DNA of 64,000 nt, taken from Glutinoglossum americanum (Eukaryota; Ascomycota; Geoglossomycetes; Geoglossales; Geoglossaceae). The stretch is from the NCBI GenBank assembly GCA_020080175.1, contig JAGHQL010000070.1:1-64000 (forward strand). Reading direction: 5' to 3'. Positions 3,725 through 63,800 of this stretch are shown piece after piece. Every line of letters begins with the position of its first letter. Positions within the stretch are counted from its first letter, which is position 1. The notes beneath the pieces were generated by a model that saw only the letters and a program-made list of their open reading frames with translations, had not been told where the DNA came from and ran no database searches. A program made the translations under genes and the position numbers.

Positions 3725-4829
3725 TCAGACAAACAAGATCTTATCTTATCTCCCCACCCAGCTTTTTTCCCCGCCGCTTATCCACAGAAAGAATCCCACT
3801 TCCACGAGGGCTGGCGAGGCAACTATGCGTAGCCGTAGGCACTTTTTTCTTTTTTTTCGATCAACGTTGAAAAAAGAAGATTCGAGGAAAATACCCACGG
3901 CCTTTTGATAGGGTTGAGGGCGAGGAATTGGAAAAAAAAAAACGGAAAAACTAACGCCCACCGCTCGCTCTCTCTCCCCCTCCCCCACCTCCATGGCTGC
4001 CCCAATTTCCCTCAGTTCTTCCCTCTTCCCATCCATCGCGCGTCGCAGCATGCAACACGGCGGAGAAGCGTGCCGAGTTCCGGCACGTTAACTAGCCAAG
4101 CGTGGCGAACGCACACTTGAATGTCCACCGCGTGCAATGTCTTCAGCCAGCGCCAATTCTCGTGGGGGAAGAGAGAAGGTGTGGGAATGGCGATGCGTAG
4201 CGACTTCTTTTGCTCTGGAGCTGATGACTGATAGTGGTAACGCACGCCGCGTGGCTTCGACGCAGAGGAGAGAGAGTCCGTCCCTTGGTGCCGGATTGGA
4301 GGAATTGGAGGTGTTTGGGATGACAGAAACCCGCCCTGCCAGTCTACTCTGCCAATGAATTGAATTGGCTCGCTTCGCCCGCCTTATAGGGAACTCGCTA
4401 TATTAACCGAAAGACGGTTTGATTAATTAATGAATCAATTGACCAATTGTCTCTGGTTGTCTCTTCGTCCATTCGTCCATTTGTCCCTTCTGTTCTTGAA
4501 GCTCAGGCCTTACGACCCTCTTTGCCGCATCTCTAGAATGCTATTTACACCGTCTTGATATACCGGTTTACAATGGCCAAAACTCGTACCTGGCACACTC
4601 AAACCTTGTCGCTGCGATAGGAGTGTCTCGCGGTTTACAAGCTTCGGTGCGCTCTTGGTGATGAGGTGCGGTGTCGACAACCAAGCCACACACTCGACAT
4701 GCAGACCTTCAGCCTCACCCGCGTAAGGCTAAGACTCCCGCGGCGATCCCGCAGTCTTCAGGGGCGTCCCGCGGGAAAAGTGCCATCGGTGCATCTTGCA
4801 ATATCCCGTCGGTGACTCGAGTCTAAGAT
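3725..4829. promoter_or_regulatory. intergenic region between divergent genes
   Basis: About 1.1 kb without a supported gene lies between the starts of the MFS gene (minus) and the HeLo-like gene (plus), so both promoters should be here. It contains T-rich and CT-rich stretches (3841-3860, 3961-3990) typical of fungal 5' regions, and an AT-rich patch at 4400-4450 made of TTAATTAA- and CAATTG-like words. No specific operator can be named. Confidence 0.45.
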
Positions 4830-5963
4830 ATGGATCCTCTCTCCGTCGCGGCGTCGGTGGTCGGGCTACTTTTGGCAGGCGGAAAAATGGCCGGCTTACT
4901 GTCGAAGATGACCTCTCTAACGGATGCACCGGCCCTAGCGAGAGCCGTGTTGACCGAAATGTCCGACATCTCTGCAGCGCTTCGGCACACTCAAGACTTC
5001 CTGAGGGGGGCCATCGCCGTTCCCGCTGAGCGTCGACAGTACATCCTGCTAGAACACCTCGTCGCGACCCTGACCGGATGCGTCACCACGTACTCGGAAC
5101 TCGAGCCTATCGTTGACAGTTTGAGGATCGGCGCCTCGGATATGGGCGCCTTTGATCGTGTCAAGTGGTCCGTGAAAGAGAACGAGATTCGGGATATCGT
5201 TCAGCGGCTGCAGAACCACAAGTCTTCCCTCAATCTCATGCTCACAATCCTGCAATGCTCGTCGAGCCATGAGATACAGCAATCCGTGACGAGGCTATGC
5301 GGTCTCGTGGAACAAGCTGTCAGGAGTAACGGCGATTTATCAATGCGGCTCAGCCGCCTGGAAGGAAACCACACGCTCTCGTCCGGCGCCTCGAATGTAG
5401 TACCGATCTACGATGACGACGGTAACGACAGTGCTACCATTCGGCCGGTAACAACAACGAATGGCAATCAGCCAGATATCGTCGACGAATCAGCCATAAC
5501 CACTTTTGCCTTCGACAGCACCCTGAAGAAATCTCGTGTCTACTCAAGAGTCAACTTCATCCGCTCCGACAGCCACTCTGAGTCCTCCCTAGTCAGCTCT
5601 GATTGCAAGACAGCAGCCATCTCAATCTTCTCGTCACGGAGCCTCTCCGAAGTATCCAACTTATCCGTATACTCATTGCCGATATGCCTCGGGGATATCA
5701 ACAATAGAAATTGGTACATTGAGATAGAAATCCGTGTGAAGCTTTACAAGATGGTCCACATCAAGATTACACCGAATACTACGTGCCTCGACTTGAAACA
5801 GAAGGTCTACGATAAAGGAGGATGGCCACCGGACCAACAATTTCTTGTTTTCTCCTCAAAAAAGATCCCAGACAACGCCATTCTTATGGACATTGGAATC
5901 CGAGATGGAAGTCTAGTGCACGAGATCTTGCGATGCGCGTGGCGGGGGATCGATGGAGGTTAG
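4830..5963 (+). CDS. HeLo-like/STAND N-terminal domain protein with C-terminal ubiquitin-like domain
   Basis: Single-exon frame of 377 aa starting MDPLSVAASVVGLL, the hallmark start of the fungal STAND N-terminal (HeLo-like, helical) domain. That domain fills roughly residues 1-190. A Ser/Asp/Asn-rich linker (about 190-290) follows. Residues about 296-377 align with ubiquitin: the segment DKGGWPPDQQFLVF matches ubiquitin DKEGIPPDQQRLIF; Lys equivalents of K27, K29, K33 and K48 are present; Ile44 is Val; and the chain ends ...RGIDGG immediately before TAG, a C-terminal Gly-Gly like mature ubiquitin with a four-residue insertion. HeLo-like domains elsewhere mediate membrane targeting and regulated cell death, usually attached to NLR ATPases; here there is no ATPase. 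Whether the Gly-Gly is used for conjugation is unknown. The domain calls are strong, the function is inference. Confidence 0.85.
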   Translation: MDPLSVAASVVGLLLAGGKMAGLLSKMTSLTDAPALARAVLTEMSDISAALRHTQDFLRGAIAVPAERRQYILLEHLVATLTGCVTTYSELEPIVDSLRIGASDMGAFDRVKWSVKENEIRDIVQRLQNHKSSLNLMLTILQCSSSHEIQQSVTRLCGLVEQAVRSNGDLSMRLSRLEGNHTLSSGASNVVPIYDDDGNDSATIRPVTTTNGNQPDIVDESAITTFAFDSTLKKSRVYSRVNFIRSDSHSESSLVSSDCKTAAISIFSSRSLSEVSNLSVYSLPICLGDINNRNWYIEIEIRVKLYKMVHIKITPNTTCLDLKQKVYDKGGWPPDQQFLVFSSKKIPDNAILMDIGIRDGSLVHEILRCAWRGIDGG

Positions 5964-11427: not shown

Positions 11428-14400
11428 TTATGATAATAAGACTTCTGAATATACAATATTGTCAGTCTTATCATCACCGTTTTCGGGTAGTAAAGCACTT
11501 AAGCCATGAATATCAGTAACTCTTGATAATGCAACATATAACTGTCCATGTGTAAATGCAGAAGAGCGTAAGTCCACACCAACAACATTGAGCGATTGAC
11601 CTTGCAACTTGTTTACAGTCATTGCAAAACATAACTGTACTGGAAACTGCTTGCGAATTAACTGAAACGATAGTTCACCTTCTTTTGTAGTTAAGTGGAT
11701 TCTTGGAAGGACTCGTAACTGTCCGTCAAATTCACCACCAAGTATCCGTACCTCAATGCAACGTCGACCGCAATGAGTGACGATCATGCGAGTACCGTTA
11801 CATAAGCCTTGCTTAGGATATAAGTTCCGTAACAGGATTATCGAAGCACCAACCTTTAAATGCAGTCTTGCTGGTGGCATTCCAGCTGGATTAAGACTGT
11901 TAAGAAATTCCACAAGTAATTCATCGTGACCTTCATCAGTATTATTGACATCTGTAGCATCAACAGAATTATATGTATGTGAATCATCAAAGAGTTGTTG
12001 TATGAGATAGTCGTTAAGAGATCGTACAGTATCATTCCGCATGGATAATATTGCATGGCTTCGGAAGAAACTGATATCTGTATGTAGTCGTTCCAATTGA
12101 GAACGTAGAAAAATATGATTGCAAAAGTGCTCTAAGGATTGAAACTGTATGATGCCAGCTAGTAATGAAATTTTACCATGTAATATAACGTCATGAGGAA
12201 GAGAACTTACCCACCGTGCAAAATGCTGATTATCCTCACCGATACGAACTCGCATATTCTGTTGCAGCATCAACTGCCATAATTGCATCCACAAAAATGA
12301 CCGTTGAATACATGCATTGACGATGGTACTGCGATTACCATTGCGAATGACCGGAAGGATCTGTGCAAAGTCACCACCTAATACAATAGGAATACCACCA
12401 AAGGGATGTAAATTGTCTAAATATATATCTTCCAACATGCGATGGACTGCTTCAAAACAATACTTGTGTTACATTAGAACTTCATCCCAGATGATTAACG
12501 ATGTTTTTTGTAACAGACCCGCGAGATCGGATTTCTTACCTACAGCACACGTTGCAGACTCGTGAATATTTAATGGAATCTTGAACCGTGAGTATGAGGT
12601 CCGTCCACCAGGTAAAAGTAATAAGGCGATGCCTGAAGAAGCAATACAAAGAACTATCTTTCCTAAAGCACGATAGTGATGACAAAGACATTTATAGAGA
12701 AAAGTTTTACCAGTCCCAGCAAGACCTTGTAAAAAGAAATGTGCTGTATGTGAATTATCCGCGATAGCCATAACAATCTGATTAAAATAGTAAGTCTGAT
12801 CTGTATTAAGTTGTTCATAATATTGTCTACCAGTTGTCCGTTCTTCATTAGTATCATAGTGCATTTCAGTTGCAACCATCAGATTGCCAATGCTGATGCT
12901 CCAATCGTGCTGATACATTGGTAAACCAAAGTCTGTAAGAGTTTTACCAACATCCGCAAGAACTTCATGAATCAGAAACAGACCATAATCAAGATGCGAA
13001 TCTTGCAAGCTGGGAAGTATAATCTGCTGTCGCTGTAAATGATGTATCAAGTCGTCACAGAGGTTTTGACGAAATTGCATCCATAAAGCTAAGGGATCTA
13101 TTACGTTACCGAATAACAATGCCGTAGTGAAGAGCATTCGCAATACATTTCCAGATGAAAATAACACAGCTTCTGTAAAACAATCAATCCATTCTTTATC
13201 ATCTTCCAACAGCCCTAATGCCATGCAAGCAGACTGAAATGTTGGATGTAGAAAATCATGTACAGTACGGAGGTCGATGAAGGATCGAGAACCACGGACT
13301 GTAGTCAGCAACATACGTAAGTAATATCTTTCACCCGCAAAAGGGCTACAGTGATATATACGACCGATTGCAGTTCCTCTTTGGCGTGGAGACCATATCC
13401 GTAACTTATCTTTAAAGATGTAATAGGTTGGAAATTCTTGATATAGATATTGACGTCCATCTGCATGTTCCGTATTGTATTGAAAGAAAGCCATAAGTTT
13501 AGAACAGGCTATCTGCATACGTTGACGAATTTCTTCTTCCGTCGCATCGTCCAGAAAGTATACTGGATGTTGATCAGGTAGATGAACGGATAGGTGAATT
13601 ACTGGTGGATATTTTTCATGGGTAGGAAACTCGAATATTCGCCATATAGCTTCTGTCGGACCGATATAACATCCCTGCAGATGTCTAGTGATTTCATCGT
13701 TCTCGTTTGCTAACCGTAAAGTCATTTTGTCAGTACCTTTATAGATATACTTATGGATGTACTTGATAGCTTGTACAGAAGCGCAAACTTCCACGTTAAT
13801 ATGTGCTTTATAACACATGGTAAGATATGGATTGTATGGAACAACCCAACTGTTATTTATGGCGAAAGTTCGACTAGAAGAACCTGCAACAGGTACCATC
13901 CATTTTCATTCATCATCGCGTCTTCGATAGAGTGGATATCCATCTTCTTTCACCATAGTTATAGCTTGAAACGGATGTGAATATCGTTTGGTACACGATG
14001 ATGACCCTCCATATTCAGCGATTGTTATGCATGGAGCATTAAAAAACTCTACGCCACATGGTCCATGAACCATACTTGATTTGACGATCCTTGTCAGTTC
14101 TCCTATAGGGTCCATCGTAGTATTCAAAAGTTCAGCGGATATGATTTCATCAATACAGGATGCGTCTAGAAAACGATCATCTGGATGCAAAAAGAGTAAC
14201 AGATGAATATGTGGAAGACCGCGTTTCTGATATTCAACAGTCCATACACATCTAAGATATCGACCAAAAATCTGATCTTGTTTCAATTCACGTAACAACT
14301 GCTTTACCTTCAAGTAAAAAACGCAAGCTACCAAATCCGGTTGATCCATAGCAGTTTGACCTCTTTGCAGCTCTCGTTCGATCTCTTCCCATCGTGGATT

Positions 14401-15997
14401 AGCTGTAAATGTAATAAAAAGAGTTAGTCTGCCAAAGTGACGGATGATAGCCATAGAATCTTGAAAAAGCTGTTGTATAAAACGATCGCCACCAGTATAA
14501 CTGGACAGAAGAATGATGCGACGTCTGAAATTGTTCGCATCGACGTTATGGCGAAGCATAGCATCTGCAAGACCATCGTACAAATCTGCACAGAAGCTCG
14601 ACTGATGTTTTCGTAACCATTCTAACTTGGTCTGATCACAAACGGCCCACGCGTCGACGATGTACTGCTGAAACAGACGTCCGCTAAGAAATAATATTTC
14701 ATCGTTATATTGACGGGTATGAAGACGGTATCGATAATATACTCGTTGGCATAAACGGTCCTTCTGACGCACCCCGTTACGATCCAGCAACTGTAAACTC
14801 CAATGCCAACCAACCTCTCCATACGGAAAGAGCAAAACATAATGCAGAAGCATGTACGCTGCATGAGTTGGGCTGATACAGGACATGCGATTGCTGTTAC
14901 GTTCACTAAGGATGATGTCACGGTTGCAAGGCTCTCCATATTCGTCTTGAATGATGATAGCAACTTCCGCACTAACAGGTAAATTGTAGCGCCGTCAATC
15001 GGTTTCTTTTTCTATTACCAATTCCATCCTTGGGTTGAGGATGACTCGCATGTCATCTGTAGATGCAGTAGCGGTTCGTAACCTCTCTTCTGCAGTATGA
15101 TAAAGAGAAATAAATGGATTGATTGAATATAACATATCCATCAGTCCTTCTAAAATATGTTGCTTCAGTTGTGGATTCTGACCATTTCGTATTTCCGCCG
15201 CTTGCTTCGCATCGTAGAAAAACAACTGTGCATATCGCGGTTGCTGTCCTCATTCAGGTGCTAGCGGACCTTGTAGATGATAAAGTTCACTGTGAATCTG
15301 AAAACAGGAAGGACTATTACGATTACGAATGTGCGTATTGATGTTGTAGTTAGCAGATGTAAATGCAAGAGTAGCATTGTACTGACGGATGTATTCGCGA
15401 AAAGATTTTGCTTCCACATCAGTTAAAGTTAGCAGGTTACGTAAATAAGAGGGAGGGGGTCGAAATGGATTCAAATGAATGTCACCTCTCTTGCAGCAAG
15501 TTTCCCATTGCGGTGCTTCTGATTTACTGTTACTTATACGTTCATCGATCCAATGTAATGCTTCGCAATTATCGCAAGCATGGTTCATAGGTCCGAGAAC
15601 CAATGGTTGATATCGATGAAAGGATGAGATGAACGCTAAAGGATGTTACGAACGTTGAGGAGGACGACCATGCTGTCTTCTTTGTACTGATAGTTCTACT
15701 ACTGAATAATCATGAACTTCCGAAAGATTACGTTGCTGCTGTCGATGCCGTACTGATCTCATTTTATTACCATCAATCTCCATTAATACTGGTTGTCGTC
15801 GTCGATTCTAATGTAAAAGTGTCAACGAAAGAGTTATGATATTAAACGTATCTTATTGTTATTGTTATTATCATTATTCTTACCGTACAGGCCTGACAGG
15901 TCTTGTAAGGTCGACCAAGTCGATCACGACAAAACGAATCATAAGGTTGATACTGTTTACAGCTATTGCAGAAGCTATTGGAAGAAAATGGTGGCAT
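11428..15997 (-). mobile_element. Helitron Rep/helicase gene, decayed
   Basis: On the minus strand, exon 15997-15884 and exon 15807-11428 are joined over a 76-base intron (GTAAGA..TTACATTAG). One continuous frame of 1497 codons results, interrupted by five stops, each explicable by a transition. The first exon encodes a Cys pair motif (FCNSCKQY...KTCQACTNRRR). Next come a CDNC finger and the HUH nuclease motif LPHIHLLLFL near 14200, with the Tyr region KYIHKYIYKG near 13740. The PIF1-like helicase has Walker A GLAGTGKTFLYK near 12700 and the C-terminal LCFAMTVNKLQGQSL and YVALSRV motifs. This is the full domain order of an autonomous Helitron. The TC 5' end and the CTRR/hairpin 3' end could not be placed with confidence, so boundaries are those of the gene only. 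Confidence 0.92.
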
Positions 15998-25750: not shown

Positions 25751-27251
25751 TTATGGCGGTCGCTGGGACTGCCTGACCGTGGCCAGCCTAGCCTGGTCAT
25801 ATCGCTCTCGCCGTTGATTCTCAATCGTCCATGCAGCCGTTTGTCTATCAACGGAGAGCTCATGTATCCGATCTTCTTCACTGGCCCGGCGATGATTTTC
25901 TTGTGCATCAATCCGATCAAGCCGCTCTTGAAACGTGGCCGCTACTATTCGGACAATATTTGTTAGCACCTGGGCCACCGCTCTCAGAGTCATGATACAT
26001 ACCGCTCCGAACCGTCGAGTGGTCCCTCCCAAACGTCTTCATCAGAAAGTTCTCGATGCGGCCCAAAAAAATAATACGATTCAGTTCAAAGTAATCGGAA
26101 TGATAGTCGGTGTCGATGAAGAAAGATTCGAAAGTATTGAAGGCATTGGTGTCGTAGAGAAAGTCTTCGCCCAAAATTACATCACAAGGAAGATTTGGCA
26201 GCACTTCAAAGTCCCGCAGATCAAAGCTATCCCCATCCTCACCCAAGACCACAGAAACCTGCACACTACCAATTGTGTGCGCGATACTTCCATTCGCAAA
26301 TTGAACGCGACTCGACTCTGATCGGTCAATGGCATATCCCATTCGTCTGACGTAGTCCAAAGACATCAGGTCTAGCTCTGAGCCAGAATCTGCATTAGCA
26401 AGAGTGTGATTCCCGTTGATGCGGCAGGAGAGCCGCGTCGAGGGTGACCCAACGAGTAGCACCTTGGGTATATGACTCGGTAGATGTGTGCGTGGCTTTA
26501 GGCGGTCTCGATGTTTTGTCATGGTTTCTGTGCTGTTGAGGAATCGCCTGCCCATGATCAACTTGGTCGCCAAGGCCTTGAAAACGTAGAACCAGCATTT
26601 ACTCTTTGTTTCGGGTTCATTTGCAAAGGCGCAGCCGATCTCTACCCGTCCTGTGGCTCTAATAATCTCACCGTTCCCAAGCTTGAATCTTGGACGATCG
26701 CCCGCACCCTTGTGAACACGCAAGTTGAGGTTCCCAGCTAGTTCTGCCGACATGATATTTTCATCCGAGCCTGTATCTGCACAAGCCTGTATCGTGTTTC
26801 CCCCCAGCACCATATGAAGCTCCCTGTTTTGAGTTGATCTTGGAGCGAAGCGCGGGCTAGCTGGAGTGATACTCTCAGCCTTGGACCGAGCTAGAGTAGT
26901 AGAGGCCAACTCACGTTTCTTGTCTCGCTCTATAGGAAAAGCCTTATCCAGGTATGACTTGAGCGAGTCCTTAACAGCCTCTAAGGAAGGGGGAGGGCGC
27001 CCAAATCCCCACGAAGATATACGAAGGCCAGCTCTGTATTCGAGCGTGGTAGGTACCTTGTTTTCAACCCCGTGGGCGCCAGGCCACTTTCGAATGACGA
27101 CAGGTTTGAGCTTGTCGAATGCGGCTCCTGCGATGTGCATTAGTCTCTGGTATTACGCGGCAGCTCGTAGTAAGTGCGTACCTATGAAAGTCATCCCAAT
27201 ATCTACCCCAACAACAATACGCTTGTGAAATGCATCCTCTGGAACAGACAT
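25751..27251 (-). CDS. Hsp70-like N-terminal stub fused to two retropepsin-like domains
   Basis: Three exons, 27251-27182, 27127-26003 and 25944-25751, total 1389 bases, 462 aa. Introns are 54 and 58 bases with CTAAT/CTAAC branch sites. Residues 1-70 hold KRIVVGVDIGMTFIG and NKVPTTLEY..ISSWGFG, the beginning of the fungal Hsp70-like/actin-like ATPase fold; the rest of that ATPase is missing. Two aspartic-protease domains follow: Asp141 in ACADTGSDENIMS with LIMGRRFL, and Asp270 in NADSGSELDLMS with VILGEDFLY. Both have the A-D-T/S-G-S active-site loop and the later hydrophobic-G motif of retropepsins. The last 64 residues are a charged helix. No reverse transcriptase, integrase or LTR is seen, and the frame is intact, so it reads as a host gene. 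Activity and substrates are unknown. Confidence 0.78.
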
Positions 27252-37675: not shown

Positions 37676-40600
37676 ATGCCGAATGACCATGGAAGACAGC
37701 GCGGTCTGCGACTGCTTTCTTTAGGTAGGTTTTCTACTGAGCCCCGCTTTCTTAGACCTATAAACCCTTACTAATTACAAAGATAGATGGTGGTGGAATC
37801 CGAGGCGTTTCAGAGCTTGTGATCCTCCAGGAGATCATGCATCGTATTCAGCGGATACAGAAACTCGACCACCCACCTCTACCAAGTGATTACTTCGACC
37901 TCATCTGTGGGACAAGCACTGGAGGGTAGGGTGCCACTTCATACTGCAGATCCCTGTGCTAACCGGATGTCGGCAGTCTGATTGCGATTCTTCTTGGGAG
38001 ACTCAAGCTGTCAGTTTCAGACGCTATTGATAAATATAGGATTCTTGCCAAGACCGTGTTCTCAGAAAGGAAGGCCAGAGGTAAAGATGGCGCATTTAAG
38101 GCATCGAAATTAGAGCAGGCTATAAAAGATGTTGTAGAATGGAAGTTGGGCTCAGGACACGCTGATGAGAATATGTTTGAGCTAGAAAGCAGTGAAAGCG
38201 GCGAGGAATCCTGCAAAATGTGAGACGGTAACTTCTACCTGCAATCCATCGCTAACACAATCCTGGTAGATTTGTCTGTGCCGTTGCCGCGCAAAATATC
38301 AATAGAAAGCCGAGGCTTTTCCGGTCCTACCAAGCCGATAAGAATGAAGGATATAACTGTACAATCTGGGAAGCTGGCCGTGCGACGTCGGCAGCACCAA
38401 CTTTCTTCAAACGCATACAAATTGGACCGCCGGGACTTCAAGAGGACTTTATCGATGCGGGGCTTGGCTGCAACAACCCCGTAAAACAGTTGATTGCAGA
38501 AGCGGAGCACATTTTCGGGGATGCGAGAGACGTAGCCTGCATTGTCAGCATAGGCACTGGGAAGCCAGAGGTGACCGGTTTCAGAATGCCGGCATTTGGT
38601 CTTCAGAGAGTTCTTCCAATAGATCTCATAAAGGTTCTTAAGAATATGGCTACGGATTCGGAGGCTACGGCTGCAGAAATGACGCAGAAGTACAAATACT
38701 ACCCAGGGGTATATTATCGTCTGAATGTAGAACAGGGATTGGAGAATGTATCGCTCGAGGAATGGCAAAAACTTGGTGAGGTGAAGACGCATACCTTGGA
38801 ATATTTGAACCAAGTCGACATCAGCCAGAACATTGACGACATCGTGGCTGCTTTGATTGGTAGTTCTCCCTCTCAGAAGTATACTATAGGACACCTAGGT
38901 AGTCAATGCAATTACCCGTTGTCGAAATGGCAGCTAATGCCAAAAAGGTACATCTATTCCGGCGGTTGATCCACCCCGTACATACTACAAGTATCCGGCA
39001 TTGAGAGTTAATCATTTTATCGCTCGGGAGAACCCACTTAGGGAGATTGAAGCTACATATCATCACTCCAAGGACCTGGTTGACCCCACAGTGGTAGTCT
39101 TATTCGGAATAGGTGGCTCTGGAAAGACACAGCTTGCACTTGAATATTGTCGACGAACTGAAGCAAGCAGGCGATTCACGAGCATATTTTGGGTGGACGC
39201 ATCTGATATAAAAACTACAGCACAGAGCTTTTTAACCATAGCCGGAATAATTTCCGATGAGGGATTGGAACTTGCTGATGCAGATGCAAGTATACGATTT
39301 GTCACAGATATAATAAGCACCTGGCATAACCCTTGGCTGATTGTTTTTGATAATTTTGATTCACCTAATGCGTTTAAGGGCAAAAATATGAAGGATTACT
39401 TTCCCCGAGGAAAAAATGGAGCCATCCTTTTTACCAGCAGATTTGCGGGAGCTAGGCGGTTGGGAAATATAGTCAAAGTGACCAATATGTCAGAGAGTGA
39501 GGGATTAGAGCTTTTGCTTGAGCGTTCTGGAGCGAGCACCAATAGTCAGAATTGCAAGGCAGGAAAAGAGATTGTCCAGCGGTTAGGATACTTAGCCCTT
39601 GCCATCGATCAAGCCGGAGCATACATCTCCACACGTGGTCTGGCTCTCCATCTCTATATCGACCACTACAACAACCGCAAAGAGAGAGTTCTAAAGGAGG
39701 TGCCGGAGTTCTGGGAGTATAGAAAGAAACTTGGTGACGCAGAGGCAGAAACATCTCTAAGTGTCTTCACAACGTGGGAAATGTCATTCGAACAAATCGC
39801 TTCAGGTGGCAATGGCCGAAGAAACAAAGAACACCTACTTACAGTATCCGCATTCTTCGACAACAAGGATATATTCGAGGAACTCTTTCGGGTTAACTTT
39901 AAGCCGGAGAATCCAGGGTGGATGGAACTATTCTGTATTGAGGGAAATTGGAGCGAATATGAGTTTCAAGATGTATTAGCAGAATTATTCAATCTCTCTC
40001 TTGTACAGAGTCTTGAGGCCGGAGCCGCTGGAACACACTTTTCACTCCATCCCCTCATTCAAGACTGGGTAAAGCTAAGGCTAAACCTCCAAGACCGTCG
40101 GACTTATGCTATGGAAACAATTTCAATGCTTGCTACTTTCATAGATGTCAAGGATGCTATGACATTGCAGTTGAAGCAAACAGTTGTTTCACATTTGGAT
40201 GCGTCTGTTCAGAATGACGCAAGCTTTCTTAATCATGGGGGTGGACTAGGGACTCAATGCCTGATGGGCGCTACACTCAGCTTTGCATCTTTCTACCTTA
40301 GTCGAGGACGGTACAAGGAGGCCGAGCAGCTCTACGGGCAAGCGCTCGAAGGGTGTGAGAAGCAGCTCGGTCCAGACCACCCCGAGACGCTACGGATGGT
40401 GCAGAACTTCGCGATCGTCTACGGAAACCAAGGCCGATACAAGGAGGCCGAGCAGCTCTTCGAGCGAGCGCTCGAGGGGTGTGAGAAGCAGCTCGGTCCA
40501 GACCACCCCGACACGCTACGGGCGGTGCCGAACCTCGCGAACATCTACCGAAACCAAGGCCGATACAAGGAGGCCGAGCAGCTCTACGAGCGAGCACTCG

Positions 40601-42225
40601 AAGGGTATGAGAAGCAGGCCGGCCCAGACCACCCCGGCACGCTACTGACGATGCAGAACCTCGCGAACGTCTACGCAGACCAAGGCCGATACAAGGAGGC
40701 CGAGCAGCTCCACGAGCGAGCACTCGAGGGGTATGAGAAGCAGCTTGGTCCAGACCACCCCGACACGCTACGGACAGTGCAGAGCCTCGCGATCGTCTAC
40801 GGAGATCAAGGCCGATACAAGGAGGCCGAGCAGCTCCACGAGCGAGCACTCGAGGGGTATGAGAAGCAGCTTGGTCCAGACCACCCCGACACGCTACGGA
40901 CAGTGCAGAGCCTCGCGATCGTCTACGGAGATCAAGGCCGATACAAGGAGGCCGAGCAGCTCCACGAGCGAGCACTCGAGGGGTATGAGAAGCAGCTCGG
41001 CCCAGACCACCCCGAGACGCTACGGACGGTGCAGAACCTCGCGATCGTCTACAGAGGTCAAGGCCGATACAAGGAGGCCGAGCAGCTCCACGAGCGAGCA
41101 CTCGAGGGGTATGAGAAGCAGCTCGGCCCAGACCACCCCGAGACGCTACTGACGGTGAAGAACCTCGCGGTCGTCTACGGAAACCAAGGCCGATACAAGG
41201 AGGCCAAGCAGCCCTTCGAGCGAGCACTCGAGGGGTATGAGAAGCAGGCCGGCCCAGACCACCCCGAGACGCTACGGACGGTGCAGAGCCTCGCGAACGT
41301 CTACGGAAACCAAGGCCAATACAAGGAGGCCGAGCAGCTCTACGAGCGAGCACTCGAGGGGTATGAGAAGCAGCTTGGTCCAGACCACCCCGAGACGCTA
41401 CTGACGGTGCAGAGCCTCGCGAACGTCTACAGAGACCAAGGCCGATACAAGGAGGCCGAGCAGCTCTACGAGCGAGCACTCGAGGGGTATGAGAAGCAGG
41501 CCGGCCCAGACCACCCCGAGACGCTACGGACGGTGCAGAACCTCGCGGTCGTCTACGGAAACCAAGGCCGGTACAAGGAGGCCGAGCAGCCCTTCGAGCG
41601 AGCACTCGAAGGGTATGAAAAGCAGCTCGGCCCAGACCACCCCGACACGCTACGGACAGTGCAGAGCCTCGCGGTCGTCTACGGAAACCAAGGCCGATAC
41701 AAGGAGGCCAAGCAGCTTTTCGAGCGAGCACTCCAGGGGTGTGAGAAGCAGCTCGGTCCAGACCACCCCGAGATGCTACTGACGGTGCAGAACCTCGCGA
41801 ACGTCTACAGAGACCAAGGCCGATACAAGGAGGCCGAGCAGCTCTACGAGCGAGCACTCGAGGGGTATGAGAAGCAGCTTGGTCCAGACCACCCCGAGAC
41901 GCTACGGACAGTGCAGAGCCTCGCGATCGTCTACGGAGATCAAGGCCGATACAAGGAGGCCGAGCAGCTCTACGAGCGAGCACTCGAGGGGTATGAGAAG
42001 CAGCTTGGTCCAGACCACCCCGAGACGCTACGGACAGTGCAGAGCCTCGCGATCGTCTACGGAGATCAAGGCCGATACAAGGAGGCCGAGCAGCTCCACG
42101 AGCGAGCACTCGAAGGGAGGGAGAAGCAGCTCGGCCCAGACCACCCCGACACGCTACGGACGGTGCAGAATCTCGCGACTCTACGCCGTCGAATGCAACC
42201 AGCCACCCCACCCACCAACCTGTAA
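37676..42225 (+). CDS. patatin-NB-ARC-TPR NLR-like protein
   Basis: Five exons, 37676-37724, 37787-37925, 37977-38219, 38270-38898 and 38948-42225, close in frame to 4338 bases, 1445 aa. Introns are 49-62 bases. Residues 1-370 form a patatin-like phospholipase: oxyanion loop DGGGIRG (17-23), nucleophile Ser60 in GTSTGG, and catalytic Asp206 in DAGLGCNNP. The NB-ARC NTPase follows: Walker A GIGGSGKT (407-414) and Walker B LIVFDNFDS, then a winged-helix part. Fifteen 42-residue TPRs fill residues 807-1436. This is the known fungal NLR design in which ligand binding to repeats triggers the N-terminal lipase, often linked to self/non-self recognition and cell death. All catalytic residues and joins look intact, so it may be functional. 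Confidence 0.93.
40306..42196 (+). repeat. 15 tandem 126-base TPR-coding repeats
   Basis: Fifteen consecutive units of exactly 126 bases encode GRYKEAEQLYERALEGYEKQ followed by LGPDHPETLRTVQNLAIVYG.Q. Units 4 and 5, and 13 and 14, are almost identical at DNA level. Protein differences recur at a few sites: Tyr/His/Phe after EQL, Cys/Tyr after LEG, Leu/Ala before GPDH, Asp/Glu before TL, Asn/Ser and Ile/Asn/Val in the last helix. The repeat also leaves a long open frame on the opposite strand that is not a gene. Confidence 0.95.
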
Positions 42226-44447: not shown

Positions 44448-46544
44448 CTAATTGAGGCGTACACGCCATATTTCGCGATCTTCTTCGCCCAGATAGGGCG
44501 CACCTGCGTGCGATATAGCGGTATTGCCCAACAGAAGCACGTCTCCGTTTTCCCACGAAAATCGTAAACAGACTCTCCGGTCGTAGAGGAGGTCATTGAT
44601 AGCCTTTGTAATATCCTCATTACCACCCTCAGCGGTAATCTTGTCTTGTGAACTAATTCTGGTGACTGGCCACGGCTGATGCCAGCATGAGTAAGGCATA
44701 TGCTGCACTAGATATTGGACTACTAATGGTAGGTCTTTTAACCCGTTGTGAACCCCTAGGTCATCATTCTGCAACTTCCACGTCGCCCTTTCGAGGCTTT
44801 CGACAGGGTACAAATAGGACAGAAACTGGAAGAGACGGCGCGAGGAAACAAAGAGAGTGTCACCGCAGCCTTGAGTGCTTGTATTGACGCAAGTGAATAA
44901 TTCAAACCTTAGAAGTGTTAGTGAAACTTAACTCTAACGGCTTAGCCAACTCACCTAGGCCATTTGTAACTTTTTAGATTGCTGTGTCGTTCGTCCCCCG
45001 CGTGATTAGTGCACTGAAAGCCATTAACTGTAGACCCGACTATGCTATTGAAATGGGTAGGTATTGTAAAACCGCTGTTGTTGATATCCTTGGAGGTGTG
45101 ATCCATTTTGTGATTGAATATTCTTTCAACTTTACCAGGTGACCAGCTTAAGACCTCTCCAATTTTGCTAGCAGCCTCAACAAAGACGCCACGCTCTGTG
45201 ATTTTACTGAAACCACGCAAAATAATCGGGGATTGCCGTTCCCCTAACTTCCGCAAGGTCCTCATATTGATATCAAGTATCGAAATAGGACCTGCACTTT
45301 GTGCAGGACGAACAATAAGGCCACAGGGGTATAAGTGTTCTAACTCTACGGAGGCTCCCAAATCATACAATGCTGATCTCTCGCGGAAATAAAATGGCCG
45401 ACTGCCCGAATAGATGACGTCGTGAGTTTCGTGAAGGTCTGATACATGAGCAGTTTTAAACGATCCGTTGACGTCAACGGCCACGGCACAGTGCCAAGGG
45501 GTCATTGAGAACTTGCCAAGTTCTTGCGGCACCAGAGGTATAGACAGCTTTGTTTCGTTGGTTGAGGGATGAATTGAGAGTCGAACGTAGTCTGGACATT
45601 TAACTTCAATAAGCTTCGCAAAGGCCTACGAGACATCTCAAAGTTTAGCCAACGTATTTAGGCAAGGGGACTGACTGCTATTCCGACTGCACGTCGAACG
45701 AAAACACTAACCTTTCCACGCGTAATCATGTCTGCAGCAACCTTTTTACATATTTTTCGGTAGGCTGTCTTACTGCTGGCATTGCGGGCATAATCAGTGT
45801 ACAACAGATCTTTCTGCAAAAAGCGCTTGTATCCGGAGTAGGTCATGCAGGTATCTCGGTTCCGACTGATTTCCAATCGAAAGTCAAAGTTAGGATCACC
45901 AAATTGCGCCATAAGCTCTTTCCGACATTCTGAAATAAGTGCAAGATATTCATCTCTGGTGATGGCCCGGCTAGAGTGAAGACCGAGTAGATCCATGACT
46001 CGGATGAACCTAATGTTTGTCGAGAAGCCTTTGGCGAGTACAATTTGACGCAAGGCCTCCGTGTAGTTCCACACCTCTTCGTCTGGAGTAAAATCAAGGT
46101 CTTTGGGATACCTGTTAGTGCCCGAGTCGAACCCCCCATCCCATAAAGTTGTCGTCTCAAAAGTACTAACCGTTGTAGACCAAACCATCAGATAAAATGG
46201 TTACAGTAGCCCCGGGTTCATAGATATCAGCAATATTACGACAGAGACCATTGAGATGTGCTAGTGCGAGTTCTTCGCCCATATCCGGTAGAGGACCCAA
46301 CACCTTGTCTAGCTTATTAGCAGACTTGCTAGGAAATGCTGGCAAGATCAATCGTACTGCCTCACGAGACTCAATCTGACTCTCTATTACAGGTGTAAAT
46401 TTTGCTTTCGAGAGCCAGGTATTGTCCCTTGTGACAACGTTTTGACCGTATGTTTGAATGAGGCCCAGGATCTTCCTGGCAAGCCTGGTGGATGGCTTCT
46501 CGTGAAAAATAAATCTATTTTGATCTAGAGGCGTAGGTGACTGC
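44448..46544 (-). CDS. isocyanide synthase (DIT1/PvcA)-TauD dioxygenase fusion, joined to the NLR exons upstream
   Basis: Exons 46544-46171, 46100-45712, 45625-44955 and 44907-44448 stay in phase. The DIT1/PvcA part has STRLARKILGLIQTYGQNV, LILPAFPSKSANKLDKVLG, LPDMGEELALAHLNGL, TILSDGLVYNDL and MTYSGYKRFLQKDLLY, the isocyanide synthase family that turns an amino-acid amine into an isonitrile. The TauD-like Fe(II)/2-oxoglutarate domain follows (ISILDINMRTLRKLGERQSP, PIILRGFSKITERG, HQPWP, LRFSWENGDVLLLGNT). Such fusions occur in fungal isocyanide pathways. The usual His-x-Asp iron motif reads His-Phe-Asn (45047-45055), which may cripple the oxygenase. No ATG is available in the first exon's frame. 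The most economical reading is that it is spliced from the NLR exons at 46642-48539. The exact acceptor (46544, 46556 or 46578) is uncertain. Confidence 0.78.
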
Positions 46545-46641
46545 CTATTATCTGCACTTAACAGCTCCTCGGCGTTTGTCTGACTAACGTAAGGGTTAAA
46601 TGAGAATTTTCTTAGCGTTAGGGGAACCAAGTCAAACTTAC

Positions 46642-48539
46642 AATAGTCCTGTCGTTCCACAGGACGATGGAATAGAATCAGGTCCGTCTTGAATCCGTTT
46701 TGACGCAAGATATTCCTTGACGGAGAAATGTGCTAGTCTGACCTCTCCATTAGTCGTTAGGGTAACTAGACTAGAACATATTAATATATCTAGCGGCTCT
46801 GGACACCGCCTTTCAGGGCCAACCCGAGGGTTGCCTTCAATATCGACCGTAATAACTTCAGCGACTTCTTTGAGTTGTAAGGGCCGAGCCGAGTAGGCAA
46901 GCCACTCTAGTACCTTCAAAGCATTTTGGCTATGTTCTTCTTCAATTTGCTCCAGTATTCGAGCGTATGTATCATCCAGTGTTTTTGGTAGGGATGCCAG
47001 TGCCTTCCGAAGTATAGGGAGGTTGAGGCAGTTTACCAATGCGTCGAGCTGGCACACAGCCCATCGAAACCTGATAACAGACATTAGTGTAGATTTAAGA
47101 GATTTTATAGAGTGAAGGGATGTTCTTACACTCCTTCGGCTTTCTTAGTTAGTGTCTCCTCAATCTCCTGCTTCGCCTCCGGCTTGTTCTGCCATCTTTT
47201 TAGCCTCCGATCAGTCTGAAGCCTCTCGCGGACGTAGGTGCTGATGTCTTCGCTGACAAGCGTACTCTGAATACAGATCTTATCTCCATCATTAACCAAA
47301 TGCTCAATTCCTTCCTCGATGTCTCTTTCTCTTCTACTTGTAGCTAGGATATGCAGCTTTCCAGTCTTCCATTCAGCAATTTCCTCAATATCTGTTAGAA
47401 GGTCCTGTCTTTCCTTGCATTCGTCTAGAGCATCAACAATGATGAAAGTCTCGCTACAATTTTGGATCATCTGTCGTAAGGCCATCAGAAGCTCGCTGGC
47501 CATTGGCTGCTGATTTCCATTCATCTTGGAAGAGAAGAGTGACTCCAGTACTTTGGGTGTGCTTGCACATTGCATGGACAGTTGTGTAATAAGTGAACGT
47601 ATCATTTTCTCATGCTGCTGTTTCTCAATATCATTGAAGTCGAAGTAGAAGTACGCGACTGCCAGGGAAGAGTCGTGATCACAGTGATGGAGAACATCTT
47701 CGACGACTGTAGAACTCAGAATGGTCTTACCGCATCCAGGGATTCCGTGTAGCCAGATAAACGAGTTTGGATTTGTCTTCCAATTAGTATACTGCTTGCT
47801 GCCGATAAACCATGCTCCGGTTTGCGCTTGCCGTTTCTCGCGTGCCTCATTGTGGTTGAGTGAGGGATCTGGTGCTGACAGCCATCTATGGATCTTTTCG
47901 CGCTGATCATCTGTTTTCTATGGGGTAAGTTTATATGACTGAGGGAAAACGAAATGGAAGCGTGGCTCTCTTTACCTTCTTGACCCACTCGTAATTCTGC
48001 TACTCCCCTCGCAGTCTCCCTTGTATTATTTTTCACCTCTGCGATGTCACCCTCGATTGCTCGTGACAGTTTACTATACATAATTAATACTTGTAGCCGG
48101 GCAGGGCTATCAGAACTTACAGTTGGTCATTTTGCAGAGCTAGACCAACAAGTGTTTTCAGCCGCTCGATTTTAGTAAGGGTTTCACTGATCTCATTTTT
48201 ATCGAGTGTCCAAAGCAATATCTTGTTGAACTTCTTTATCCCAGTCCCCGGTTTTAATTTCTTTACCAGCTCCTTTATTGTTTCATCGAACTGCTCCAAT
48301 GGCCCTCCTTCCACGCCAAGTGAAAAGACACCGTTGAACCATGGGTCCGTCGGATTTGCTTCTTCCACCTTATACCTCAAATCTGTAAGGAGTGCTAAGA
48401 GGCTGGTGGTTTCTCGTGCAAGTCTCGCTCGATCTTTAGGAGCATCCTTCACATCATTGAGGTATTTGATAACCTTCGTAGTAGCATCGATGAGCTGGAC
48501 GATGCTGGCAGCCAAGGAGACCGCTGTGATAGGGTCCAT
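46642..48539 (-). CDS. SesA/HeLo-like-NACHT NLR exons, running into the isocyanide synthase
   Basis: Exons 48539-48121, 48073-47976, 47910-47130 and 47070-46642 (introns 47, 65 and 59 bases) keep one frame. The start MDPITAVSLAASIVQLIDAT is the usual N-terminal helical domain of fungal NACHT proteins and continues to about residue 140. NACHT follows with Walker A FIWLHGIPGCGKT and Walker B ETFIIVDALDEC, then TSRRERDIEEGI. The winged-helix region FRWAVCQLDALVNCLNLPIL, LPKTLDDTYARILEQI and RLAHFSVKEYL comes next. Normally ankyrin or similar repeats follow. Here the frame reaches a GTAAGT donor at 46641, and the next coding exons are the isocyanide synthase. Without splicing the frame stops at 46638. 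Total with the downstream exons is 3621 bases, 1206 aa. Confidence 0.82.
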
Positions 48540-48651
48540 AATAACAGATAGTTTGTAGGGCTGGGACGATAGTCGAATAGTTCCCAACACTAGAGACCTC
48601 CACCCGTCCAGGTTAAGCGTTGTCGTGGAAAGCAAGCATCTTATTACTTAG

Positions 48652-48838
48652 TGCCAAGATGACAGCATACTGCAGGCAGCTCGCCCTCAACCCGCCCCTT
48701 TCGGGTGAGCCACGCAGCCTTGTGATCGCTCACCCCCCATGTTCAGGGCTGCCCACTAATTTTCCTTTCCCACCCCCTTCACTCCTGCCCCCTGTTCGGC
48801 TTTAGCCCCTGAGCCAAGCATCTGGCTGAAGCGGCAGC
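48652..48838 (+). repeat. dispersed repeat, copy 2 (partner at 6778)
   Basis: Same-orientation copy of 6778-6960, lying about 115 bases upstream of the NACHT-NLR start codon, so it sits in that gene's promoter region. Confidence 0.65.
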
Positions 48839-48942
48839 CTAAAGGCGGCTAATCCACTAGAATGCGGAGATATCGTTGTTCAAGCGGATAGAGCACATCA
48901 CGAAGGTCTAGACCGAACGGGCTTCGTGCATCAGCGCAAGCG

Positions 48943-49113
48943 ATGAACGCTCTGACACAGGTTATCGTTGATGGTTTTACTCCGCAGGACGATTTGTTCG
49001 ACCTAAGCCCTGTAATTTACAAGTTATACGATCGTAAGACCAAGAAGGAAAAAGGGAGGCAGTTCTACAAGGACAAACTCGCAGATGTTTCCCATATAAA
49101 GGTGCCAGTGTAA
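48943..49113 (+). CDS. short open frame, possible gene fragment
   Basis: A 56-codon frame from ATG to TAA (MNALTQVIVDGFTPQDDLFD, then IYKLYDRKTKKEKGRQFY) with balanced composition. It is in frame upstream for about 50 bases before a stop. No family is recognised, and it may be a relic exon. The flanking 49114-49611 holds no coding signal; it is AT-rich near 49360-49420. Confidence 0.25.
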   Translation: MNALTQVIVDGFTPQDDLFDLSPVIYKLYDRKTKKEKGRQFYKDKLADVSHIKVPV

Positions 49114-49611
49114 ATCTCTACCTACTTCTTTGTAGGAGGCACTTGGCCTTTCTCAACCTCCAAAATTGATCTTCACCACGAAATATTCTACGGAGGGATG
49201 TTTTGGGTGAGGCGTTTGGTTGTGGTCGATTGGGGCCCAAGATCTAGATTCCCCCAAAAAACCCCTCCCAGAGAACAACAAAACGTCGAGGTACATAGGC
49301 ACTTCGGCCGCTAGGCCCGGCCACATTTACCTTGTAACAACTAGGCTGGACTTTATATTTAGTTTAGGCTAGAAATTAGGGTACATTTCTATATATTAAG
49401 ATTTCAAAATAAATTTAAACCCCATATCCCGCACTCCTTCTGATCTAAATAAGATCCTCTGATCTTTGGATCAACCCCCCTAAATAAAAACATGAGGGCC
49501 GGGTGCGAGAGCAATATATCTAACTGCGCAATCCAGAATTCCTCCCTCCCTTTCTTTCGATTGCCCTAACTCAAGACTGGGACATGAGAGATCACCCAAA
49601 AAAAAAACATT

Positions 49612-60884: not shown

Positions 60885-63800
60885 CGCTGCGGATTGGTCT
60901 CGTTTGAGGTCTCACAAATCACACGAGAACGCTCAGATTAGGTTTCGAAAGTCGGCGGCCTCACAAAAACGGGGACTTGTCGATCACCACAAGTTCGGTG
61001 AGGGTATATGGAGCTTAAATGTGCTCGCATGATATGGATTGTCCGGAATCTCGCCACTGAAGTCCGCAACGAATTTTCGCAAGTCAACAGACTGAAAAAA
61101 AGGAAAGCTACAGGCAGCATCCTGAAACTCTAGAAGACCTTGGGACAGCTTGGCTCGCCGAATCAATTCGAGCTCTTTCGGGATTTTTTACCGTTTGTGC
61201 GATAAGAGCAGGGCGTTGTTAGTTGGAGTATGGAGGACGATGTTTGCGATTGTAATACATGTAGTCAGCCTCGCTTGAGACTGCATTTTGGATTTAGCCG
61301 GGGTTGCTATTGGCTTCTGCAAGCCTTATCTGCACCAGAACGAAGATCGACAGGTGGGAGATAAGGAATGAGCTTCCGAAGGCGCAGCGAACTACTCGTA
61401 AGGATGTATTGTACTTCCCCCACGCAAACAGCAAGAAACATACAGCTCAGCCAAAACAAACATCTAGGTTCTCCGCGGGAAGTGAGAGCGAATCAGAAAC
61501 AGCTCAGAGTGCTCTGTGGGCATGAAAAGCTTCAGAATTATTGGTGTACCATCGAAGCGAACGACCGTCAATTCTCAATCCTATGGAAACGGGTAAGGCT
61601 CCGCTGAGAACTTCTACTACAGCCATACAATTTATAACGAATATGCAGTTAAAAAAAATCCTTGGCCTTCCAACCGCCCAGTGATTCGCACGAAACCTAG
61701 TTTGGCGTGCTGCACCAAAGGGAAATTCGGCGGCTGCCGCCGTGCTAACAAAGCAACTATTTGTTTGGGGGTTTCTGGGAAAAATAAAAAAACTAACTAA
61801 TTTCGGCTTTGAGAGGATCCCCAAGATACCAAGGGAAAAAACCAGGCTATCCTGTTGCGATATCGGGAACCCTCTAGGTTGCAATGAACTTTTGAGTGTT
61901 TAAGTGGTCAAGACATCCCGGAGGGGGGGCTGTATGGGCTTTGCAGATCCTGCGATCCAAACTCCTGGGAATAATCCTAGACCTCGTCTTTTTTCTCGTG
62001 TCACCCCAGATCCCACGTCTTCTGTTAGAGCGTTGCGTGGGCGGTTCATCTTCGGAAGGGGTAGGGATCGGGGACTGTACCAGATCAGGTTATCCAGTTT
62101 GTGTCCACCACTTTTCGCATGGTAGCTCCATATAAGCTATGGCCAACCAAGACAAAAGCAACGCGACGCTGCAAAACCATAAAAATCCATATCCTATGCC
62201 TACTATCTTAGGTACATACAGTAATCCTGCAGGTTGCAAAAGAAAATCGCTATCGTGACCAAATAACATGACTACCAATTGAATATTACAAGACGCGCTG
62301 ATACTCGGATCCAGTAATCGACCCGGGTACACTGAACTTTTCTTATTTAACAAGACAAGAAGTTGCGTCCTCCGACCCAAGAGGAAGAACTTTCGGAATC
62401 GGCGCTTCGCGCGTAGCCCGCCCGGGCGTTTTGGTCGTGTGACTCATTTGTACTGCGGGCCGCCTGGAGGTCCACCGGGTCCTGGCAAGGTATGGTGCAC
62501 ACCGGAATTCTGCGATTGAATGTCCGGACGGTTCCTGCCGTGGAGGATTAGGTATCGCATCGCAACTCTCGGACGAAATATATAGGTGGCTGGGGACACA
62601 AACCTAAGGTCCTGCGTGAAGGAGCAAATCGTACACGAAACTTCCTGTGAACGGTGAGTAGCCGCAGGTGGATCCTTTAGCCTCAAGATATGGCTTACGC
62701 TATATGGGTGGAAAGAAAGTGGGATCACCGGCAAGAAGCAGAATGTGAACCAAGGCCTAGACGAACTCAACTATGAATTCTAAATCAACGCATGCCAAGT
62801 ACTCGCTATCTTACCATCGCTTGACACAATGAGCTTGATAATATCAGTATGAGTCTCCGTCGATGATCGAAGTGCTGGGACTTACCAGTGTGGTTTCCGC
62901 AATGATGGCATTGAGCCTGCCAACCTTAAGTCGCCGTTCCCGGATCCACCCGTGTCCGATCTCACGAGCTAACTTACAGTGACATTTTCATAGCCCTTCA
63001 GAGGCGATGTAAACTCTGCAACACATATGAGCATCTATTCCCCCCGAAAGCTACGGGATTGTACCATGAGTTCCGAATGTGAAACAAAACTAGTATTGAG
63101 CTAAAGTTTAGTAGGTACGGCGAACTTGACGAACAGATGGTAACTCACAAACATATTTCGCGGTTATTTAATGCTTCTGTAAGGACGATCTTTATTGTCG
63201 TTGGAAGTAAAATAGCTGGAAGAGAGGTGATCTTTGTATTATCATGAACGCGCGTTGTGGCAAGAGCCTTAAGGTGAGGCTCTGCGGCATATTCCGCATG
63301 ATGCACATCATTCAGGGGACTGCTTGCTAAATGCTGCCCCTTTGTCACCTATATCAAATACCGATTGCATGCGCTAGTTGTACTATGGGATTAAATTCGG
63401 ATTTCAAATTACGGTTTGATGACCTCTGAAGACGCCATGTCTCGAAAGCCCTTTTTGTCGGGGACGATTGAAATGCAACCCACTGATGGGGGCACGGAGC
63501 GTTGATGGTTGATGACACGCGATTCCCTGCCTTCTCATTCTATCAATCCGCATGACTAAGGTCACTCCTGACCGTCTGTAAGCATCAAAAAGATTATTCA
63601 CTAAATACAAAAGCGGGGTAATTCGAGTCCCTTACGGAAGGGAAACCCTGAATACACGCGATCTTAAGGTACCGGTACAAGCCCTTACTACTGATTGAAG
63701 CTTCCCTTTCCGGTAGGCTGGTCGCCATACGTGACATAGGGCGAGGACCCAGGTTGTGCAGGAGTATCTACTGGGTCTTGAAGAGGAGGATAGCACAGTG

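Follow-up and report, generated by a model that had tools for sequence, protein, structure and literature searches.

The window analysed here is a 64,000-nucleotide (nt) stretch of the genome of Glutinoglossum americanum (Geoglossomycetes; contig JAGHQL010000070.1, positions 1 to 64,000, forward strand). On its minus strand it carries a gene model in which the exons of a NOD-like receptor (NLR) with a NACHT domain run in one frame into those of an isocyanide synthase (ICS) with a TauD-like dioxygenase domain. We consider it probable, as judged from the sequence, that this locus is a lineage-specific chimeric gene formed by rearrangement and encoding one protein, a NACHT-tethered isocyanide synthase whose dioxygenase half is inactive. 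The rearrangement would most simply be a deletion that joined a NACHT-ankyrin NLR gene to a same-strand ICS-TauD gene and took away the ankyrin repeats of the former and the promoter, start codon, and leader of the latter. A consensus intron would then bridge the two frames and yield a single mRNA off the NLR promoter, coding for the N-terminal domain, NACHT, winged helix, ICS, and TauD-like domain. With the dioxygenase half presumably no longer acting, any product would be an unprocessed isonitrile amino acid.

Gene model and junction of the two frames

The spliced model comprises eight exons (Table 1) and encodes 1219 residues, letter-identical to the deposited protein FGG08_003815, which is annotated as a hypothetical or NACHT domain-containing protein. 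A Pfam scan found NPHP3_N, NACHT, a winged helix (below the cut-off), DIT1_PvcA, and TauD, in this order; at the level of the gene model, a nucleotide-binding domain and an unrelated domain are present in one polypeptide. All four NLR exons are open and are joined without frameshift to the four ICS-TauD exons.

Table 1. Features of the NLR-ICS gene model (positions in the window).
Feature	Position	Strand	Content
Exon 1	48121..48539	-	NLR N-terminal domain; start codon at 48539
Exon 2	47976..48073	-	Linker to NACHT
Exon 3	47130..47910	-	NPHP3_N/NACHT NTPase, placed by Pfam and motif positions
Exon 4	46642..47070	-	End of the nucleotide-binding and oligomerisation domain (NOD) and winged helix; NLR homology to ~46681; 46680-46642 of no recognised origin
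Junction intron	46584..46641	-	58 nt; GTAAGT donor, CTAAC, TTACGTTAG end
Exon 5	46171..46583	-	Linker and start of ICS domain; ICS-TauD homology from 46555
Exon 6	45712..46100	-	ICS domain (DIT1_PvcA)
Exon 7	44955..45625	-	Remainder of ICS domain; TauD-like domain, first half; H1034-x-N1036 at the family HxD site
Exon 8	44448..44907	-	TauD-like domain, second half, with H1200 retained; stop codon 44450-44448

A preliminary description of this DNA had stated that the NLR exons are intact up to a GTAAGT donor, that the ICS exons have no in-frame ATG, and that the two frames overlap near 46640–46710. All three observations hold. The donor begins at 46641, and the stop codon of the NLR frame (TAA, 46640–46638) sits within it. 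The ICS frame is open over 46732–46166 with no in-frame ATG ahead of the ICS domain, and the frames overlap over 46732–46638. Removal of the junction intron, which has a branch-like CTAAC at 46621, brings the frames together. The splice proposed in the description, from 46642 to 46544 or 46556 with a product of about 1206 residues, keeps the frame as well, but the deposited model uses the acceptor at 46584. The startless ICS-TauD frame and the identity of the spliced product with FGG08_003815 support one fused protein as the best gene model, as had been suggested. Among 3000 simulated fillers of similar base statistics, an in-frame joining intron arose with a perfect GTRAGT donor in 10 and with one scoring 5/6 or better in 121, by criteria fixed only once the real intron had been seen; a joining intron with a perfect donor is thus rare by chance.

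The locus might instead hold two genes, namely a shortened NLR that stops at the TAA when the intron is retained, and an ICS gene starting in an unseen exon or at ATG 47084 in intron 3; we regard this as unlikely. The enumeration covered single-intron models and yielded 148 in which the ICS frame gains an ATG. In six of them the donor scores 5/6 or better and is always the NLR donor 46641; 40 have a 4/6 donor, and the remaining 102 score lower. Among the 40, which favour separate genes, 33 start from ATG 47084 in the NLR frame and seven, whose first exon is 8 nt long, from ATG 46750; a single one of the 40 combines a CAG/TAG acceptor with an intron of no more than 120 nt. The stop within the donor, the frame that is open from 47084 through exon 4, and the existence of NACHT proteins listed without repeat families (P0147, P0153, and P0172) also fit two genes. 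Against this, every first exon whose donor scored 5/6 or better used the NLR donor. Translation from ATG 47084 would continue into exon 4, and any transcript begun there would still bear NLR coding sequence. An ICS leader was not found in the window or the genome, although the leader is poorly conserved and the models are limited to a single intron. As a separate observation, retention of the junction intron in the same gene would end translation at the TAA after the winged helix and give a truncated NACHT protein of about 575 residues.

An assembly chimera appears highly improbable. The contig, of 119,868 bases, is one of 317 in the searched genome (25.8 Mb), which leaves room for such an error, but the window has no N, G+C is alike on both sides of the junction (0.44–0.47 over 44500–48499), the intron is in frame with consensus signals, and a 301-base junction query gave no second full match in the genome.

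End points of homology and rarity of the fusion

Nine locus records on seven contigs aligned to the region, and five contigs match near the junction. Their NLR DNA homology ends at 46684 (C208), 46681 (C198), 46679 (C112), 46681 (C34), and 46692 (C231, a weaker match of 50 bases). The homology stops at about 46681, some 39 nt ahead of the donor. The preliminary description had placed the repeat boundary exactly at the donor; the repeats are indeed lost, but the NLR homology ends earlier. Past the breakpoint, C198, C112, and C34 are open in the NLR frame toward the ankyrin part in the stretch read, and C208 is open until a later stop; local alignment of the fusion past the breakpoint with these four loci found no similarity. 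Homology to ICS begins at 46555 (against P0002), leaving 125 bases of no recognised origin. We also considered leftover NLR homology across the intron, in which the donor would correspond by eye to the LLQFD of the paralogs. This was rejected because the local alignments failed to beat shuffles: a score as high as the real one came from 477, 351, 358, and 179 of 500 shuffles with C208, C198, C112, and C34, respectively.

Judged from these alignments, it is at this breakpoint that the ankyrin part of an NLR was lost. NLR homology breaks off sharply in the paralogous loci, and this, together with the missing ICS start and leader, supports the earlier suggestion that the 5' half of an NLR was fused by rearrangement to a promoterless ICS gene. 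In a further locus (L016 on C97, 1542–2077), the N-terminal exon shows 76% DNA identity to that of the fusion, and the NACHT match nearby on C97 is 31% at the protein level. The contrast suggests that NLR N-termini are shuffled in this genome.

The N-terminal domain, NACHT, and winged helix of NACHT-ankyrin NLRs from Geoglossomycetes (the C198 paralog and two deposited proteins) align with the fusion; Trichoglossum hirsutum M1813_009229 and Geoglossum simile M1840_007360 show 57% and 55% identity to it, respectively, over 94% of the NLR part. These proteins continue to an ankyrin linker, and the deposited ones to the repeats too, whereas the fusion departs at about 46681. Fungal ICS-TauD proteins of the XanB type, represented by Geoglossum simile M1840_007090, have DIT1_PvcA and a TauD-like domain in the same order with the same C-terminus (46% identity to the fusion). 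Unlike them, the fusion lacks a start and leader of its own, has N for D at the iron-ligand position, and carries an attached NACHT. In ICS-NRPS-like (nonribosomal peptide synthetase-like) proteins of the CrmA type, the ICS also lies in a multidomain protein, but the partner there is biosynthetic.

Among the matches listed in the two-sided protein searches, FGG08_003815 alone combined the two domains. From the ICS side, within the length range of the fusion, NACHT was present in one of the 120 matches listed (138 in total), and from the NLR side PF05141 was present in one of 120 listed (647 in total); both were FGG08_003815. With the ICS part alone, no NACHT was found among the 120 matches listed (341 in total), from which the fusion is absent because it falls outside that length range. 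The NLR-side and ICS-part-alone searches scored only candidates sharing most words. No relative with the same junction or architecture was among the matches listed. Open-licence text in PubMed Central (PMC) contained nothing pairing NACHT with isocyanide synthase or DIT1_PvcA, and none of the papers from a looser search dealt with such a fusion, as judged by title and opening of the abstract. Five deposited ICS proteins (P0073, P0074, P0075, P0102, and P0106) have extra domains (PF01965; PF12706 with PF23023; PF07690) and are possible fusions or mis-joined models.

The published background, given here and below from the available parts of the papers cited, puts this rarity in context. All ICS in a dataset of 4,341 ICS genes are monodomain, ICS-TauD, or ICS-NRPS-like (PMC10153163), and NACHT-ICS matches none of these three architectures. 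In Sordariales, 185 non-canonical domains occur in 378 of 4613 NLRs, 92% of the domains being found in one to three NLRs, and some have been proposed as decoys (PMC12258605). Recurrent reshuffling of domains has been described (PMC4986451, PMC9815663). The fusion resembles the NLRs of PMC12258605 in combining NACHT with an unrelated domain, and differs from them in that a core enzyme of biosynthesis stands where the entire repeat region would be; the available part of that paper does not mention an ICS domain. Because lone non-canonical domains are common in fungal NLRs (PMC12258605), the fusion is striking, but not new in kind.

Conservation and decay in the two halves

In the NLR half, NPHP3_N (9.6e-44) and NACHT (6.1e-8) are both above the Pfam cut-off, and the winged helix is below it (22.7 versus 27 bits). 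GIPGCGKT at residue 228 and IIVDALDEC at residue 329 we take to be the Walker A and a Walker B-like motif, and HFSVKEYL at residue 547 lies in the winged-helix region. No Pfam family was above the cut-off in the N-terminal domain, yet residues 1–140 are 77% identical to the C198 paralog; the close homolog P0122 has an N-terminal PF17111 above the cut-off. The Pfam scan of the fusion protein detected no C-terminal repeats (ANK, WD40, TPR, or HEAT). The part of P0121 following the winged helix was not found in the window, and matches to that of P0122 were at chance level (best E 0.91). The half retains 71 of 72 near-invariant columns and shares 75% amino acid identity with the C198 paralog over 530 codons, with dN/dS values of 0.187 (NG86) and 0.313 (YN00); against C112 the values are 0.277 and 0.469. 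Lineage-specific amino acid changes number 36 in the fusion and 34 in C198, and the tip branch (0.23; median 0.103) ranks 31st of 120. By these sequence measures, the NLR half evolves at the pace of its paralog, under purifying selection.

The ICS domain is also well preserved. PF05141 is matched over positions 1–270 of 273 (6.2e-94 for the whole protein), and 55 of 57 near-invariant columns, defined here and for TauD in 120 rows as common to at least 95% of the other rows, are kept (lost: F661S and G918S; the median row loses 0.5). The domain has sequence matches to the solved structures 9dhm, 9dh4, and 3e59. No second ICS match was found elsewhere in the genome, in which the whole of P0002 matched this locus alone. 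When the first 95 residues of P0002, P0003, P0007, P0008, and P0012 were sought as leaders, the window gave weak matches only, the best of which, 22 residues of P0012 at 63030–63095 (E 0.001), lies outside the locus. The number of residues before the ICS core varies widely, from 99 in P0002 and 77 in P0022 and P0044 to 0–56 in ten other aligned ICS-TauD proteins. ICS-TauD proteins of 602–643 residues with 0–29 pre-core residues are known (P0245, P0260, P0276, P0263, P0265, and P0257), so the loss of the leader alone need not kill function.

The TauD domain is recognised by Pfam (9.5e-13) and keeps 21 of 26 near-invariant columns; the losses (K966T, D1036N, H1132Y, P1133L, and D1194G) are the fourth-most of the 120 rows, in which the median row loses none. 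In the iron-binding HxD...H, H1034 and H1200 are kept and D1036 is replaced with N. In an alignment with 7tcl, a solved protein of the TauD family, this position corresponds to the D of HxD, which is an iron ligand in the family. With this ligand lost, the TauD domain is probably inactive. D is absent at 1036 in six of 120 rows: the fusion (P0001), P0024, P0080, and the Xylographa proteins P0044, P0050, and P0055. These three and P0022, the four standalone Xylographa proteins that group with the fusion, all lack H1034, and TauD decay may therefore have begun before the fusion. Independently of the fusion, the standalone proteins with these losses, from four Xylographa species, may represent an ICS subgroup with a non-catalytic TauD; P0006 and P0015, also from Xylographa, lie elsewhere in the tree with the ligands intact.

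The grouping of the fusion with the four Xylographa proteins has a support of 97 for the full ICS-TauD part, 0.345 when the tree uses ICS only, and 0.943 when it uses TauD only, and may be long-branch attraction. The tip branch of the fusion is the longest of 117 rows (P0024, P0080, and P0093 were dropped from the 120), at 1.38 against a median of 0.13, which itself calls for a long-branch warning. By domain, again with 117 rows each, the ICS tip (0.64; median 0.088) is second longest together with P0119, and the TauD tip (1.09; median 0.074) is the longest. Repeat-induced point mutation (RIP) was considered as a cause of the divergence and rejected: the product/substrate indices are 0.80/1.25 for the NLR half, 0.94/1.08 for the ICS half, and 0.82/1.17 for the window, with no RIP signature by the usual thresholds. 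The 643 ICS-TauD codons contain no stop and no frameshift. Without constraint, an ICS frame would acquire its first stop after 18 random substitutions in the median case (0.9% divergence), and in 95% of cases by 74, so the intact frame points to selection or a recent event.

These features bear on whether the chimera is useful. It might be an evolutionary accident, that is, a recent rearrangement whose chimeric frame is decaying or lacks useful expression. Occurrence in one species, the longest ICS-TauD tip branch, the loss of five of 26 TauD columns, and the leader that was not found all point in this direction. The open ICS-TauD frame, the intact splice sites, the constrained ICS core, and an NLR half changing at the rate of its paralog do not, and the TauD losses are partly common to standalone Xylographa genes, which themselves stand on long branches with the fusion. 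On balance we find an accident rather unlikely.

The ICS could also be gated by the NLR, the other alternative in the preliminary description, as a replacement for the sensor or as the output, with NACHT oligomerisation or nucleotide switching turning on isonitrile production. The intact NACHT motifs and NLR columns, the intact ICS core, and a junction placed between domains would suit such a device. Not a single sensor repeat is left, no relative of the same architecture is among the matches listed, and catalysis by the TauD half appears to be lost. Where fungal NLRs carry an enzymatic effector domain, it is described as lying at the N-terminus (PMC9815663), though nine Sordariales NLRs have a C-terminal kinase (PMC12258605). 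From the sequence, gating seems quite improbable, and only marginally less so a receptor and synthase in one chain in the broader sense of an immune-type NACHT switch tied directly to the core enzyme of an isonitrile pathway, so that its activation would produce a reactive metal-binding metabolite or be set off by one.

A further possibility, which we rate as more doubtful again, is an integrated domain in which ICS-TauD serves as bait or ligand-binding sensor in place of the ankyrin repeats and catalysis is irrelevant. ICS-TauD does occupy the sensor position, with the TauD iron ligand lost, and the non-canonical domains of Sordariales NLRs, including the proposed decoys, offer a precedent (PMC12258605). 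The near-complete retention of the near-invariant ICS residues would be unexpected for a dead bait, and the TauD decay may predate the fusion, given the Xylographa relatives. In addition, the nine PKinase NLRs, which are the best decoy candidates, keep canonical repeats (PMC12258605), and the fusion has none.

We nevertheless favour a rearranged gene encoding one NACHT-tethered isocyanide synthase. Its probability overlaps with those of the other readings because gating and decoy, and to some extent accident, are narrower versions of this one chimeric-gene reading. Several points weigh against it. The chimera is known from one genome, in which it occurs once, and from genome sequence alone, as a predicted gene model; FGG08_003815 is a prediction from the same sequence, and hence not independent transcript evidence. 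The donors of the fusion gene itself score 4 to 6 out of 6, the second being 4/6, which is the score of the 40 weaker start models. The paralog comparison of the NLR half spans both branches, and much of it may predate the fusion. The fusion is not datable, as the intact ICS frame fits constraint or youth alike, and in a large NLR family functionless one-off fusions are expected.

Genomic neighbourhood and significance

Fungal ICS-TauD genes usually, though not invariably, lie within a biosynthetic gene cluster. No biosynthetic tailoring family was found near the locus among the 30 references for open reading frames (ORFs) of the window that were scanned, a result limited by introns and unscanned ORFs; the scanned ORFs near the locus belong to SprT-like, F-box-like, SSF, and NLR families. 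TTTGCTC, presumably a copper-response motif, occurs 13 times in the window against 11.06 expected and not at all in 48540–49600, which is uninformative. At 38256–42225 on the plus strand, convergent with the fusion, a patatin-like piece just below the cut-off is followed by an ORF with NB-ARC and a long TPR array. This is another fungal NLR layout, and the fusion would thus adjoin a second NLR gene. Pieces of Helitron_like_N and a PIF1 helicase at 11428–14994 (minus strand), in three adjacent same-frame ORFs split by stops, about 30 kb away from the fusion, indicate a decayed Helitron. A Gag-polyprotein-type aspartyl protease domain at 25917–27152 (minus strand) is probably from a retroelement, and an ORF at 4827–5963 (plus strand) has a weak PF17111-type N-terminus, below the cut-off, followed by a ubiquitin-like domain.

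If expressed, the fusion would be, within the reach of our searches, the first NLR-type protein with its repeats swapped for a secondary-metabolite core enzyme, and it would add a fourth ICS architecture to the three described in PMC10153163. It would offer a direct test case for the control of catalysis by NACHT oligomerisation, and would illustrate in nature how rearrangement, with an intron helping to join the frames, may give rise to receptors of new architecture.

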